Below are positions 9,673-41,009 of a DNA stretch of 64,000 nt, piece after piece. The position numbers were made by a program, and so were the translations under genes. The stretch spans positions 62,001 to 126,000 of the forward strand of contig NZ_PIPY01000005.1 of NCBI RefSeq assembly GCF_003987065.1. The letters are read 5' to 3'. Origin of the DNA: Pseudidiomarina insulisalsae. GTDB lineage: Bacteria > Pseudomonadota > Gammaproteobacteria > Enterobacterales > Alteromonadaceae. Under the pieces are notes generated by a model that was not told the DNA's origin, made no database searches, and was given only the letters and a program-made list of their open reading frames with translations. Within the stretch, counting starts at the first letter, position 1; every line of letters starts with the position of its first letter.

Positions 9673-9933
9673 TTACAGCGCTTGGATTTTCGCGTTCAAA
9701 CGGCTCTTATGACGAGCAGCCTTGTTCTTGCCGATAAGACCTTTGGTCGCGTAACGGTCAAGAACAGGTTGAAGGCTAGTAAATGCCTGCTGAGCAGCCG
9801 CTTTGTCGCCCGCTTCAATAGCAGCAATTACTTTTTTCATTTGGGTACGCATCATTGAGCGACGGCTCGCGTTGTGGCGACGGTTCTTTTCCGCTTGTAC
9901 CGCACGCTTTTTCGCAGACTTAATGTTAGCCAA
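9673..9933 (-). CDS. rpsT: 30S ribosomal protein S20
   Basis: An 86-residue, very basic protein ([20 protein letters not shown] at the N-terminus, [15 protein letters not shown] at the end), full length for S20, which binds 16S rRNA in the small subunit. The start codon is TTG at 9933 with AGGAG six bases upstream. E. coli rpsT also starts with TTG, and this weak start is tied to its autogenous control, so the same may hold here. It is transcribed alone, away from murJ, the usual gammaproteobacterial arrangement. Codon use is typical of a highly expressed gene. Confidence 0.98.
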
Positions 9934-9984
9934 GGTGAACTCCTAAAATTCGTTATCTGTGTGCAATGGTTTAATAGGGCGGGG

Positions 9985-10013
9985 AATATGCCTGTTTTCC
10001 GACTGAAAGTCAA
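9985..10013 (-). promoter_or_regulatory. rpsT promoter
   Basis: On the minus strand TTGACT (10013-10008) and CATATT (9990-9985) are separated by exactly 17 bp, about 50 bp upstream of the rpsT start codon. The left arm of the four-helix-bundle element begins only three bases upstream of this -35 box. Confidence 0.75.
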
Positions 10014-10016
10014 GTA

Positions 10017-10046
10017 CGTTATCGGATATTAGATACTGGTTATTGG
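10017..10046 (+). repeat. Left heptad arm of the gene-bearing element
   Basis: CG followed by four 7-bp units, 30 nt in all. It lies three bases upstream of the rpsT -35 box, so the element sits at the edge of that promoter. Confidence 0.85.
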
Positions 10047-10086
10047 AAAAACAAGGCTATGCTATTGACTGCTAAGGAGAGCTTCC

Positions 10087-10440
10087 ATGTATCAAAATCT
10101 AAAAGTTTATCAACTCGCTCTGGATTTATGTGTAGAGGTCTATAAGATTACCGAACACTTCCCGGCCAGTGAGACATTTGGCCTGGTCGCCCAGATACGC
10201 AGAGCTGTAGTCTCTATGCCAAGCAATATAGCGGAAGGAGCAAGCCGAGGAAGTTTCAGGGAGCAGGTGCGCTTTTATTATATTGCACGAGGGTCGCTGG
10301 CTGAGGTTGAAACACAGCTTGAGCTTTGCATTCGTTTGGGGTTTATCAAATGTCGCTTGCACAGTCGCACACAACAAGTATACAAACTATTAAACGCACT
10401 CATAAAGAGCACAAAGCTGCGGTTTTCTGCGAATAACTAA
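10087..10440 (+). CDS. Four-helix-bundle protein (S23/Avd-like family)
   Basis: A 117-residue protein beginning MYQNLKVYQLALDLCVEVY. It contains the conserved signature of the 23S rRNA intervening-sequence (S23) or four-helix-bundle family: LVAQIRRAVVSMPSNIAEG (about residues 34-52), then a basic/aromatic helix FREQVRFYYIARGSLAE and a last helix with QVYKLLNALIKS. Family members form small oligomeric helical barrels; some, such as Avd of diversity-generating retroelements, bind nucleic acid and partner proteins. Function here is unknown. The gene has a good ribosome binding site (AAGGAGA), is the only gene of the inverted-repeat element at 10017-10459, and ends inside its right arm. No reverse transcriptase or rRNA gene is nearby. 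It is an insertion between rpsT and murJ, which are normally neighbours. Confidence 0.88.
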   Translation: MYQNLKVYQLALDLCVEVYKITEHFPASETFGLVAQIRRAVVSMPSNIAEGASRGSFREQVRFYYIARGSLAEVETQLELCIRLGFIKCRLHSRTQQVYKLLNALIKSTKLRFSANN

Positions 10441-10459
10441 TATCTAATATCGAATAACG
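10430..10459 (-). repeat. Right heptad arm of the gene-bearing element
   Basis: On the + strand, C then the 7-mers GAATAAC, TAATATC, TAATATC, GAATAAC and a final G. The TAA stop of the four-helix-bundle gene is the TAA of the second unit. Five bases further on is the GGGG ribosome binding site of murJ. Confidence 0.85.
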
Positions 10460-10473
10460 CTTTTGGGGTTCAT

Positions 10474-12018
10474 GTGTCTAAATCACTTGCTAAATCGGGG
10501 ATTATTGTCAGCGCCATGACGCTGATCTCGCGCGTGCTGGGACTAGTGCGCGATGTGGTGATTGCCAATTTAATGGGCGCGGGCGCGGCGGCGGACGTAT
10601 TCTTCTTTGCCAATAAAATTCCCAACTTTTTACGCCGTCTGTTTGCTGAAGGGGCGTTTGCGCAAGCGTTTGTGCCGGTACTGACGGAATATCGGCGGGG
10701 ACAGGACCTCGATGCGCAGCGGCTGCTGATTGCACGGGTGTCGGGCACGCTAGGTACCTTGGTAACGATAGTGACGCTGATTGGCGTGATTGGCTCGCCA
10801 CTGATTGCAGCGTTATTTGGTATGGGCTGGTTTGTGGACTGGCTCAGCGACGGACCGCAGGGGCACAAGTTTGTGCTGGCTTCTGACTTGCTGCGTATCA
10901 CTTTTCCCTATCTTTGGTTTATTACTTTTACCGCGCTTGCCGGTGCGGTGCTGAATACCCTGGGCAAGTTTGCGGTCGCGGCGTTTACGCCGGTCTTTCT
11001 GAACATTGCGATTATTGTTTTTGCGCTCTGGTTAGGGCCACAGCTTGAGCAGCCGGAATACGCGTTGGCGTGGGGCGTATTTGTGGGTGGTCTGGTACAG
11101 TTCTTGTTCCAGATTCCGTTTATGAAGCGCGCCGGACTGTTGGTGCGACCGCAGTGGGGCTGGCATGACCCCGGTGTCACGAAAATCCGCAAGCTGATGA
11201 TCCCGGCCTTGTTCGGGGTATCGGTGAGCCAGATTAACTTGTTGCTCGACACCTTTATTGCCTCTTTTTTGATGTCCGGCTCTATCAGTTGGCTGTATTA
11301 CTCTGATCGCTTACTGGAATTCCCGTTGGGGCTGTTTGGTATTGCTATTGCGACAGTGATTCTGCCGGCACTTTCGTCGCGCCATGTGGATAAATCAAGC
11401 GACGAGTTTAGCCGTACGTTGGATTGGGGTATTCGGAAAGTCGTGTTGTTAGGATTGCCGGCCATGGCGGGGTTAATTGTATTGGCTGAGCCGATGCTGA
11501 TGGTGCTGTTTATGCGCGGCGAATTCCTCCCTGAAGACGCGCGCCTGGCGTCGTACAGTCTGTTTGCTTATGGCTCGGGTCTGTTGAGTTTTATGCTGGT
11601 GAAAGTGTTAGCTACCGGCTTTTATTCGCGCCAGGACACTAAGCGGCCAGTGAAATACGGCATTATCGCTATGGTTTCTAATATGGTATTTAACGTGATT
11701 TTTGCCATTCCTTTTGGCTATGTCGGCCTGGCGATAGCCACCTCGCTTTCGGCGGCGGTGAATGCCTTTTTATTGGGTTATAACCTCTGGCGTGACGGCG
11801 TACTGAAGCGTTATCCGGGTACCTTAACCTACCTGAGCAAAGTACTGCTGGCAGTGCTAGCCATGATTGCCGTGGTGCTATGGTTTGCGCCCGAGCGCTC
11901 CTGGTGGTTGTCGGTGGAGTTTATGCAGCGGGTCTGGCAACTTGCCGGTTTGATAGGCGCAGGGGCGGGCACTTTTCTGGTGGGGCTGCTACTGTTGCGG
12001 GTTCCTCTACGCACTTAA
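10474..12018 (+). CDS. murJ: Lipid II flippase MurJ
   Basis: A 514-residue polytopic membrane protein of the MVF (MOP superfamily) exporters, starting SKSLAKSGIIVSAMTLISRV and containing the family segments GLVRDVVIANLMGAGAAADVF and PNFLRRLFAEGAFAQAFVP. About 14 transmembrane helices are expected. It flips the peptidoglycan precursor lipid II across the inner membrane. The GTG at 10474 is chosen because it is in frame with the conserved start and follows GGGG at 10465-10468; the ATG at 10472 is out of frame. Its upstream region has been replaced by the right arm of the four-helix-bundle element, which ends 14 bases before the start codon. An 8-bp hairpin lies just after the stop. Confidence 0.97.
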   Translation: MSKSLAKSGIIVSAMTLISRVLGLVRDVVIANLMGAGAAADVFFFANKIPNFLRRLFAEGAFAQAFVPVLTEYRRGQDLDAQRLLIARVSGTLGTLVTIVTLIGVIGSPLIAALFGMGWFVDWLSDGPQGHKFVLASDLLRITFPYLWFITFTALAGAVLNTLGKFAVAAFTPVFLNIAIIVFALWLGPQLEQPEYALAWGVFVGGLVQFLFQIPFMKRAGLLVRPQWGWHDPGVTKIRKLMIPALFGVSVSQINLLLDTFIASFLMSGSISWLYYSDRLLEFPLGLFGIAIATVILPALSSRHVDKSSDEFSRTLDWGIRKVVLLGLPAMAGLIVLAEPMLMVLFMRGEFLPEDARLASYSLFAYGSGLLSFMLVKVLATGFYSRQDTKRPVKYGIIAMVSNMVFNVIFAIPFGYVGLAIATSLSAAVNAFLLGYNLWRDGVLKRYPGTLTYLSKVLLAVLAMIAVVLWFAPERSWWLSVEFMQRVWQLAGLIGAGAGTFLVGLLLLRVPLRT

Positions 12019-16977: not shown

Positions 16978-17056
16978 CGTTATCAGATAGTGGATATTAG
17001 TTATTGGTTTTACCAGTATCCAGTATCCAGTATCCAGTATCGAGTAACGAGTAACG
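16978..17056. repeat. Heptad inverted-repeat element between fkpB and ispH
   Basis: Left arm 16978-17007, 30 nt: CG, TTATCAG, ATAGTGG, ATATTAG, TTATTGG. Loop TTTTA. Right arm 17013-17056, 44 nt: C, four perfect CAGTATC units, two perfect GAGTAAC units, G. The four identical CAGTATC units indicate recent 7-bp expansion. The element ends four bases before the ispH ribosome binding site. Confidence 0.88.
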
Positions 17057-35072: not shown

Positions 35073-35164
35073 CGTTATTAGTTATTGGTTATTAGATATT
35101 GGAAAACCAATAACCAATAACCAGTATCCAATAACCAATATCCAATATCTAATATCCACTAACG
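35073..35164. repeat. Heptad inverted-repeat element between cmoA and cmoB
   Basis: Left arm 35073-35102, 30 nt: CG, TTATTAG, TTATTGG, TTATTAG, ATATTGG. Loop AAAA. Right arm 35107-35164, 58 nt, eight units. The ends extend as AGCG and CGCT, making the outer palindrome perfect. It is the longest arm in the window, 30 plus four units. Transcripts of cmoAB would carry a long hairpin that can pair in several 7-nt registers. Confidence 0.9.
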
Positions 35165-39144: not shown

Positions 39145-39761
39145 TTGGTCGTTTAACGGGTACGTTAATAAGCAAGCAGCCGCCAGAAATTATGATTGAC
39201 GTGCAGGGTGTTGGTTACGAGGTGCAGATGCCCATGACCTGCCTGTATGAGCTGTCCGACGTGGGTGAGACGGTGACGGTGATCACCCATTTTGTGGTGC
39301 GCGAGGACGCGCAATTATTGTATGGCTTCAATACCTTCGCCGAACGTTCGTTATTCCGGCAACTGATCAAAGCACAAGGTGTCGGCCCTAAATTAGCCCT
39401 GACCATTATGTCGGGCATGACCGCGCATCAATTCGTGCAGGCCGTCACCCACGATGACGTGTCGAGTCTGATAAAACTACCCGGCGTAGGGCGCAAGACT
39501 GCTGAGCGGCTGGTGGTAGAGATGCGCGACCGCTTAAAACAATGGGGCAGTGCCACCCCGGCGACCGACGCAGCGCCGATGGATACCAGTGATTTGCAAC
39601 CGACGCTCGCAGCCAGTTCGCCACGAGACGACGCGCTGGACGCATTGCTGGCGTTAGGCTACAAGCCGGCACAAGCGGAAAAAGCAGTAGCACAGGCGGT
39701 GAAGGGCAATACCAGTGCATCAAGCGAAGAACTCATCCGCACAGCACTGAAAAACATGTAA
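39141..39761 (+). CDS. ruvA: Holliday junction branch migration protein RuvA
   Basis: A 206-residue protein with N-terminal OB domain ([20 protein letters not shown]), tandem helix-hairpin-helix motifs ([14 protein letters not shown] and [16 protein letters not shown]) and a C-terminal RuvB-binding domain ([21 protein letters not shown]). It starts with TTG 39141 after AAGGAGAGG, overlapping ruvC by 4 nt. It tetramerises on Holliday junctions and recruits RuvB. ruvB normally follows directly; here 171 bp of repeat elements intervene. Confidence 0.97.
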
Positions 39762-39770
39762 AAACAAATG

Positions 39771-39916
39771 CGTTATTGGTTATTAGATACTAGATATGTA
39801 AAAGCAAGAGCGTTATTGGTTACTAGATATTAGTTATTTAAAGCCAATAACCAATATCTGATAACTAACAACGTAGTTGTCTTTAACCAATAACCAATAT
39901 CTGATAACTAACAACG
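39771..39916. repeat. Double heptad element between ruvA and ruvB
   Basis: Two left arms (starting 39771 and 39811, each CG plus about four units, the last unit decayed) are followed by two right arms (39844-39873 and 39887-39916). The right arms are identical 30-mers and share a further TAGTTG after the arm, repeating with period 43. The left arms repeat with period 40. Each half-set was therefore duplicated separately, giving left-left-right-right order. Confidence 0.88.
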
Positions 39917-39932
39917 TAGTTGCATTTAACGA

Positions 39933-40949
39933 ATGATTGAACCGGATCGTATAAATCAGCCGCAGCAGCAAGGTGAAGATGAACTCATCGACCGCGCTAT
40001 CCGGCCAAAAAAGTTAGCTGACTATACCGGTCAGCAGCATGTCGTTGAGCAGATGGAGATCTTTATCCAGGCGGCGCGGCAGCGGCAGGAAGCGCTCGAT
40101 CACTTGCTGATTTTCGGGCCACCGGGGCTGGGTAAGACCACCTTGGCGAATATTGTTGCCAATGAGCTTGAGGTCAATATTCGTCAGACCTCGGGACCGG
40201 TGCTGGAAAAAGCGGGCGATCTGGCCGCGTTGCTGACCAATCTGGAAGCGCACGACGTGCTGTTTATTGACGAGATTCATCGACTGAGCCCGGTGGTCGA
40301 AGAAATTCTGTACCCGGCGATGGAAGATTATCAGCTTGATATCATGATTGGTGAGGGGCCCGCAGCGCGTTCGATTAAACTGGATTTGCCACCTTTTACC
40401 CTGATTGGGGCCACGACCCGTGCTGGCGCGTTAACCTCGCCACTGCGTGATCGCTTTGGTATTGTCCAGCGCCTTGAGTTTTATAATGTTGACGAGCTGA
40501 CTACCATTATTCAGCGCTCTGCGAACTATCTGAACCTTAATCTTGATGATCAGGGCGCCCGGGAGATTGCCCGGCGTTCGCGCGGCACGCCGCGTATTGC
40601 CAATCGCCTGTTACGCCGGGTGCGTGACTATGCTGAAGTGCGTAATGACGGCAAGATCGATCAACCTGTCGCCGCGGCCGCACTGAAAATGGTCGATGTC
40701 GACGAGGCTGGCTTTGATTACATGGACCGCAAACTATTGTTGGCCATTATTGAAAAGTTTATGGGCGGTCCGGTAGGGCTGGACAATCTGGCGGCGGCAA
40801 TTGGTGAAGAGAAAGATACAATTGAAGACGTGTTAGAGCCTTATTTGATTCAGCAGGGCTTTTTGCAGCGTACGCCGCGAGGTCGTATTGCAACCCCACA
40901 CGCCTACACCCATTTCGGACTGCAGAAGAGCAAAAGCGATAATAGTTAA
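39933..40949 (+). CDS. ruvB: Holliday junction helicase RuvB
   Basis: A 338-residue AAA+ motor. Walker A is [12 protein letters not shown] (about residues 60-71), Walker [10 protein letters not shown], sensor [18 protein letters not shown], and a C-terminal winged helix with [12 protein letters not shown]. RuvB hexamers drive branch migration with RuvA. The spacer from ruvA is filled by the double heptad element. The last codons (SDNS and stop) run into the left arm of another element, so the extreme C-terminus is repeat-derived. Confidence 0.97.
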
Positions 40950-41009
40950 TAGATACTGGATATTGGTCGAAGAAAACAACCAATATCCAGTATCCAATAA
41001 CTAAGAACG
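40937..41009. repeat. Heptad inverted-repeat element overlapping the ruvB end
   Basis: Left arm 40937-40966, 30 nt: CG, ATAATAG, TTAATAG, ATACTGG, ATATTGG. Loop of 13 nt. Right arm 40980-41009, 30 nt. The left arm supplies the ruvB stop codon (40947-40949). Confidence 0.85.

Follow-up and report, generated by a model that had tools for sequence, protein, structure and literature searches.

Inverted heptanucleotide arms around bacterial S23 family genes, and gene-free hairpins that accompany the gene in one genus

Genes of the S23/IVP four-helix-bundle family (PF05635) are flanked, in many bacterial phyla, by short tandem arrays with a unit of seven or, in fewer loci, eight nucleotides, and where heptad arrays occupy both flanks they mostly stand in inverted orientation. 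In the genus that holds the gene described below, such arrays are abundant only in genomes with an S23 gene. The recurrence of this layout across phyla, together with the restriction of abundant arrays to gene-bearing genomes of the genus, suggests that the protein likely recognises the repeats. We propose that gene and arms constitute a hairpin element of the IVS type, whose S23 protein would likely bind the arms, with host enzymes predicted to help copy or keep gene-free hairpins; in our judgement the chances that this reading is right are about even.

The gene in question lies in a stretch of 64,000 nucleotides of Pseudidiomarina insulisalsae DNA (hereafter the window), the relevant features of which are collected in table 1. 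The original prediction described two 30-nt inverted arms around it that match at 25 of 30 positions, and a direct count of 10017-10046 against the reverse complement of 10430-10459 returns precisely this figure. In the repeat finder's output the pair comes first of 14, with arms of 48 nt that are 73% complementary and 373 nt apart, and the inverted match between the two 150-nt flanks of the gene (locus L001) is above that of all 100 dinucleotide shuffles. The placement of the gene between the arms calls for a small correction: it is flanked on both sides, but its last 11 bases are shared with the right arm, which thus supplies the stop codon. The open reading frame is intact (117 codons) and, by profile search, present as a single copy in the 2.56-Mb genome. 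Its neighbours are rpsT, on the opposite strand, and murJ, and it is not inside a 23S rRNA gene. The minimum-energy fold of the gene-bearing RNA pairs the two arms, although the RNA as a whole does not fold better than shuffles (z -1.1, 16 of the 100 shuffles being equally good).

Table 1. Gene-bearing and gene-free heptad elements of the window
Feature	Position	Strand	Basis
S23/IVP four-helix-bundle protein gene, 117 aa	10087..10440	+	PF05635 1.6e-33; TIGR02436 7.1e-34
Left heptad arm, TAYTRGW units	10017..10047	+	sequence reading, repeat finder, pattern search
Right heptad arm, overlaps the gene's stop codon	10429..10459	-	sequence reading, repeat finder, pattern search
Left outer end AAAGTCAAGTACG, like the AAAAnCAAAAGCG end of gene-free elements	10006..10018	.	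weak: 3 mismatches to CAARAGCG
Right outer end CGCTTTTG, exactly the consensus right end of gene-free elements	10458..10465	.	
Putative Shine-Dalgarno-like AAGGAG, 7 nt upstream of ATG	10074..10079	+	read from sequence
Gene-free heptad hairpin, ribF-ileS gap, overlaps the ribF stop codon	13040..13124	.	RNA fold z -4.0
Gene-free heptad hairpin, fkpB-ispH gap	16981..17053	.	RNA fold z -6.5
Gene-free heptad hairpin beside cmoB	35074..35163	.	RNA fold z -6.6
Compound heptad element, ruvA-ruvB gap, tandem duplicated halves	39769..39930	.	left half alone z -1.5
Gene-free heptad hairpin, ruvB-ybgC gap	40940..41006	.	RNA fold z -7.9

The protein had been described as S23/Avd-like, of which the first half stands. 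It scores 115.6 bits on PF05635 (cut-off 33.8) and 116.3 bits on TIGR02436 (cut-off 24), but with 21 bits stays far below the cut-off of 80 set for the Avd model. The AF2 monomer model has four helices (pLDDT 94.8), and Foldseek matches it to the four-helix bundle 2gsc (6.4e-8, TM 0.87), which the window protein resembles as it does 2rld. Both structure entries hold 5 chains, and for 2gsc a ring with five members has been described (Lin 2006, cited through PMC4990558). Foldseek also returns Avd structures, namely 4dwl and the ribonucleoprotein chains 8ub7, 8ub8, 8ubb and 8ube, at E values of 0.06-0.7 and probabilities of 0.80-1.00; the fold is common to S23 and Avd. Profile search matched no catalytic domain in the window protein, and no Y1 domain. 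In four usable gene pairs of the genus dN/dS is 0.11-0.23 (two L177 pairs, misframed and with pN near 0.6, were left out, and three more were saturated at silent sites and gave no ratio), and by this sequence measure the gene is under purifying selection. S23/IVP genes are frequent among bacteria, three samples giving 35 of 196, 80 of 370 and 17 of 26 genomes with the gene, the last being the genus.

The heptad word of the arms is widespread in this genome (G000). Three consecutive TAYTRGW units, with up to 2 mismatches, are matched 35 times in the window and 0 times in each of 100 dinucleotide shuffles, and the heptad pattern has 204 matches genome-wide against 17 for its reversed control. 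Among 29 element places read in the window and in sampled stretches of the genome, 26 are two-armed, and all 26 present the TTGG-type arm first, the opposite order being found 0 times; the polarity claimed for the gene-bearing element is therefore that of its gene-free counterparts. The left-end motif CAARAGCG is found in 25 of the 29 places and the right-end motif CGCTYTTG in 21 (up to 2 mismatches; shuffled means 7.1 and 5.5, respectively). Gene-bearing and gene-free elements thus have a common polarity and, at least on the right, common outer ends. The idea that the gene-bearing element is the full-length form and the others its miniature copies agrees with the likeness in polarity, outer ends and heptads, but the left end of the gene element is a poor match. 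The element between ruvA and ruvB (39756-39934) is unusual in that its halves are duplicated in tandem on both sides, as 40-nt and 43-nt repeats.

An association of the family with heptad arms in other genomes had been put forward as a check, and it proved to reach far beyond what was proposed. In 58 of 80 named loci, these being the best 80 of 588 confirmed PF05635 relatives, from many phyla, 7- or 8-nt tandem repeats are present at no more than 200 nt from the S23 gene; the other 22 have no such tract by score, several of them resembling short degenerate heptads by eye. Throughout these best 80 of 588, the density of lag-7 tracts falls from 3.0 per kb in the 150 nt next to the gene to 0.09-0.16 per kb at distances above 300 nt, and that of lag-8 tracts from 1.04 per kb in the nearest 150 nt to 0-0.04 farther out, while each of lags 4-6 and 9-12 gives at most 3 tracts within 150 nt; in intergenic DNA only, the lag-7 figure is 4.8 near the gene versus 0.52 per kb. 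In the same best 80 of 588, a tract lies within 150 nt of 40 of the 80 S23 genes versus 37 of 323 other open reading frames of 100-300 aa from these loci (p 6e-13). Narrower samples give the same picture: a 7-nt tract occurs in 19 of 30 family-level PF05635 loci (the window's included, mostly 3.3 kb), with 30 tracts in all against 0-3 for the other lags from 4 to 12, and in 24 of 29 class-level loci, where lag 7 gives 59 tracts and lags 4-6 and 8-13 give 0-4.

The arrays are also ordered around the gene. When lag-7 tracts are present on both flanks (named, family and class loci), 40 of 47 loci have them inverted, 6 direct and 1 ambiguous. A flank-match test that needs no tract detection, with dinucleotide shuffles made per locus, places the inverted match above all 100 shuffles in 60 of 80 named loci (best 80 of 588), in 20 of 26 at class level, in 11 of 23 at family level and in 13 of 15 within the genus; the corresponding counts for the direct match are 15 of 80 (again the best 80 of 588), 6 of 26, 5 of 23 and 0 of 15. 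The two arms further differ in composition, upstream lag-7 tracts having more G than C in 70 cases versus 11, and downstream tracts more C than G in 51 versus 8 (5 ties left out). The heptad word itself varies between genomes. Arm length has its mode at four whole heptads (52 of 139 tracts), with 32 tracts of three and 17 of five, in a count for which tracts under about 17 nt are below detection. From the family, class and genus sets, the comparisons of arm length, orientation, flank match, G/C content and near versus far heptads used only loci of about 3.2 kb or more.

Units of eight nucleotides flank the S23 gene in 13 of the 55 loci with a clear period (e.g., L093, L096, L098, L102, L107, L134, and L146), and in L095 the upstream units are 7 nt long and the downstream units 8 nt. 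We considered whether period is a trait of protein clades and rejected this: on the protein tree, from which 4 of the 80 proteins were dropped for stops or length and 21 loci for want of a clear period, there are 10 changes versus 11.8 after shuffling. Since the switches follow the tree hardly better than chance, a tight co-evolution of protein and repeat is not favoured.

Avd genes served as a control. The Avd model gave 41 matches, of which 30 loci were examined and only 7 exceed the cut-off. The 18 best Avd-like loci (29.8 bits or above) are free of 7- or 8-nt tracts next to the gene, the only finds being a poly-T run and, at distances over 400 nt, three lag-8 tracts, and the flanks of Avd-like loci exceed all 100 shuffles in 0 of 12 cases for the inverted match and 2 of 12 for the direct one. 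A tract does stand beside the gene in 7 of the 12 weakest loci of the model (21-28 bits), which we take to be S23-like. Avd-like loci are thus without arms despite the common fold, which argues that the arms go with S23 and not with helical barrels generally. A reverse transcriptase, the partner of Avd in diversity-generating retroelements, was sought as RVT_1 in the G000 genome and gave no match.

The distribution of gene and arrays within the genus provides additional clues. The S23 gene is found in 17 of 26 genomes, in one as a fragment; it adjoins murJ in 14 of the 17. The gene moves little: every one of the 17 carriers has it next to rpsT, whereas the gene-free copies turn over. Two heptad patterns, searched with up to 1 mismatch in all 26 genomes and summed, occur 5-297 times in the 17 carriers and 0-4 times in the 9 non-carriers, two of whose assemblies are only 77% and 86% complete. 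The value of 5 belongs to G573, whose gene has another word; the other 16 carriers have 22-297, and the non-carriers 4, 2, 1 and six times 0. The chance of such a full separation is about 3e-7 (1 in 3,124,550) with kinship ignored and with a threshold of 5 that was chosen after the counts were known. The reversed control is common in three carriers (19 versus 22 for the pattern in G572 and 32 versus 50 in G151, both with the first pattern, and 37 versus 45 in G576 with the second), which means that counts by pattern are too high for these words in the three genomes; in all 9 non-carriers the reversed controls are 0. The near-equal control of G576, for the pattern TTCGTTR, indicates a further word family among its repeats. 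Mapped on a MurJ tree, gene presence switches no fewer than 6 times; among independent pairs with good support the arrays go along with the gene in 4 of 4, a number too small for p 0.05.

Orthologous gaps tell a similar story. Heptad tracts are present in the ribF-ileS gap of 12 of 16 carriers and 0 of 7 non-carriers, and in the fkpB-ispH gap of 10 of 15 carriers and 0 of 7 non-carriers, the two gaps together giving 22 of 31 for carriers and 0 of 14 for non-carriers. These counts leave out G573 (both gaps), G170 (second gap), G580 and G578; in G578 about 35 nt separate ribF from ileS and the fkpB and ispH matches overlap, so that there is no room for an element. In three non-carriers the computed fkpB-ispH gap is negative, the genes abutting or overlapping. 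A given orthologous gap often holds different heptad words in different species, which indicates that elements are replaced or rewritten and not just inherited. The ribF-ileS gaps of five genomes (G570, G102, G564, G131, and G566; loci L209-L211, L219, and L216) hold REP-like GC-rich palindromes of the GTAGCCCGC...GCGGGCTAC type where relatives have heptad hairpins. These palindromes are a second repeat class.

At the S23 gene itself the two arms change together: within the genus the median score of a locus's own pair is 37 versus 13 for cross pairs, and the own pair is the best in 10 of 15 loci. Locus L032 (in G151) has long direct arms, while the other three genus loci in the orientation set are inverted; L032 and L179 fail the inverted-flank test. 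A strict match of one word between gene and genome was also entertained, and finds no support in G131, G569 and G579, where the word at the gene differs from the commoner of the two tested words in the genome. In a looser sense far and near arrays do correspond. In 27 loci with both, far heptads match their own near heptads at 0.710, compared with 0.552 when loci are permuted (0 of 5000 permutations) and 0.586 for column-shuffled heptads of matched composition.

The co-occurrence of gene-free arms with the gene, also raised in the original prediction, therefore holds within the genus but is not clear in 14 genomes outside it. In these single-contig genomes of the family and class, sampled at 140 kb each (7 x 20 kb), lag-7 tracts number 7 in the 8 carriers and 2 in the 6 non-carriers; lag-9 tracts in the same-sized samples number 8 and 4, respectively, so these figures show no dispersal outside the genus. 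Genome-wide dispersal as a general rule was accordingly set aside, the eight outside carriers having no clear excess. Mass dispersal is thus demonstrated for this genus but not for carriers in general.

Several known systems bear on these elements. The inserts of 23S rRNA known as IVS, in Leptospira and Coxiella, are likewise hairpins closed by inverted arms at their ends, with an S23 gene in the loop, and the window gene occupies just such a loop. According to a section of PMC4990558, the Coxiella IVS has tandem heptamers (GACAGAT) directly before its S23 ORF, with RNase III cutting at the first repeat; the same paper describes S23 proteins as lacking a known function, and notes that a role in mobility had been suggested for the IVS ORF (citing Ralph and McClelland 1993). 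The site of the IVS is rRNA, whereas the window element lies between protein genes; 7-8 nt repeats round the S23 gene are common across phyla and not the oddity of a strain, and in this genus, as a further difference, gene-free hairpins accompany the gene. By analogy, the Coxiella insert reads like a further such element, whose landing site was rRNA. An exact-match search of the loci for three short words of 23S rRNA gave one match (L161), too narrow a test to place all the sampled S23 genes outside 23S rRNA.

A second parallel is the REPIN/RAYT system, in which, as outlined in parts of PMC3116915, one resident gene is accompanied by many gene-free intergenic inverted-repeat hairpins per genome. 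The 26 two-armed places among the 29 read in G000, and the 204 versus 17 matches, conform to this arrangement. In REPIN/RAYT, however, the protein is a Y1 transposase, while S23 is a helical bundle with no matched catalytic domain; the only Y1_Tnp match in the genome lies about 37 kb away and not beside the repeats, and the arms here are tandem heptads with a freely changing word.

Heptanucleotide repeats of bacteria have their own literature. GGGAATC repeats in Xanthomonas and GGGGAYT repeats in Nostoc form intergenic arrays with a four-unit preference and, in Xanthomonas, 70-75 convergent pairs (Rehm 2015; sections of PMC4692102), and TAACTGA repeats occur in Beggiatoaceae, cyanobacteria and Bacteroidetes (MacGregor 2015; sections of PMC4679880); the latter paper explicitly asks which protein binds the repeats. 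Explanations offered for the repeats in these two papers are polymerase slippage, quadruplexes or a so far unknown protein that binds them. The likeness to the arms described here extends to the intergenic position, the 7-nt unit, the preference for four units and the convergent pairs. In X. arboricola an S23 gene, a close match to the solved XCC0516, lies between GGGAATC-like units, seen by eye and below the score threshold. By term search, neither S23 nor 'four helix' occurs in the main texts of PMC4692102 and PMC4679880; we found no paper joining S23 genes and heptad repeats in the open-access literature, judged mostly by listings, and a table in PMC5524665 merely includes a four helix bundle protein.

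How might the hairpins be recognised and multiplied? If the window protein forms a five-subunit ring, as reported for its relative, such a ring would read about four to five heptads per arm. It would bind the arm in a word-specific manner, the target being the hairpin either as RNA or as single-stranded DNA. As the S23 protein matched no catalytic domain, host enzymes are proposed to cut and copy the hairpins; RNase III, or enzymes of replication or recombination, might fill this role, and binding by the ring may help the hairpin to be copied or kept by them. On such a scheme the dispersed copies would be lost as a consequence of losing the S23 gene, and not the other way round.

In an alternative scenario the hairpins serve the host as transcript ends, either two-way terminators or hairpins for RNase III or stability, with S23 genes there by chance and a protein that regulates or exploits the hairpins but does not spread them. 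The ends AAAAGCG ... CGCTTTT do give A- and T-runs on both sides, the elements sit in gaps at or just past stop codons, and four of the five gene-free window pieces that were folded do so far better than shuffles (z -4.0 to -7.9; the fifth, -1.5). Yet a consensus scan of the gene element (9900-10520) finds no terminator, non-carriers have no hairpins in the ribF-ileS and fkpB-ispH gaps, and the heptad arms of S23 genes across phyla would go unexplained, so that we consider this scenario unlikely. Distinctly unlikely, in our opinion, is that S23 genes are selfish or domesticated cargo of an ancient IVS-like insert, with heptads that arose by polymerase slippage in the stem and a protein that acts elsewhere, for example on ribosomal RNA. 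Slippage accounts for changes in array length, and parts of PMC4990558 report both S23 ORFs inside 23S rRNA inserts and a number of heptamers before the ORF that differs between Coxiella strains; but slippage alone does not give inverted arms with a common word, and it explains neither gene-free copies whose abundance follows the gene within the genus nor a unit length confined so sharply to 7-8 nt.

Two further possibilities invoke factors other than the S23 protein. Mobilisation of the hairpins by a host REP-type Y1 (HUH) transposase or a reverse transcriptase, with the S23 gene as a passenger, has a precedent in REPINs, which PMC3116915 presents as mobile hairpins with a Y1 transposase, and REP-like palindromes are present in some genomes of the genus, G000 itself having one Y1_Tnp match. 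Neither enzyme tracks the arrays, however, and both were rejected as the driver: 11 of 17 carriers have Y1_Tnp, as do 8 of 9 non-carriers, and the six carriers without it include the heptad-rich G563, G568, G070 and G577, while RVT_1 occurs in 4 of 17 carriers and 3 of 9 non-carriers, G000 not among them. We regard this as highly improbable. Hardly tenable is an action of the heptads as G-quadruplexes, as proposed for the GGGAATC repeats in Xanthomonas and Nostoc. The four-unit preference in Xanthomonas (in the relevant part of PMC4692102) does coincide with the four-heptad mode found here, and upstream arms are richer in G; but the window heptads TATTAGA and TATTGGT have no G-runs of three and the same layout, and the G-poor words AGTCGTT and GTTATTC have inverted arms just as G-rich ones do.

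The proposal of an arm-binding S23 protein can be extended to a stronger form, which we offer tentatively and rather doubt. S23 proteins might be bacteria-wide repeat-reading rings, each clamping or wrapping an arm of 7- (or 8-) nt units whose word can be rewritten. Ring and hairpin would then make up a mobile element that spreads gene-free copies with no transposase or reverse transcriptase of its own, and the 23S rRNA IVS and the heptanucleotide repeats would be two faces of one system. S23 structures have been solved since 2006-2007 while a function has been lacking, and the link described here supplies a candidate binder for heptad repeats. Two orphan puzzles, the S23 proteins and the heptanucleotide repeats of bacteria, are thereby joined into one question. 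Should the S23 protein indeed spread or keep the hairpins, this would be a case of DNA repeat multiplication without a transposase of its own.

S23 genes are also carried by 21 virus-labelled contigs (IMG/VR, L377-L397, some near-identical), with 7- or 8-nt arrays in 18 of the 21. Possibly this reflects transport by phages, or host DNA in provirus contigs. Elsewhere, contig C1 of G479, a genome of 1.5 Mb, weakly matched PF05635 in 11 places, often with identical scores, as if the gene itself had expanded.
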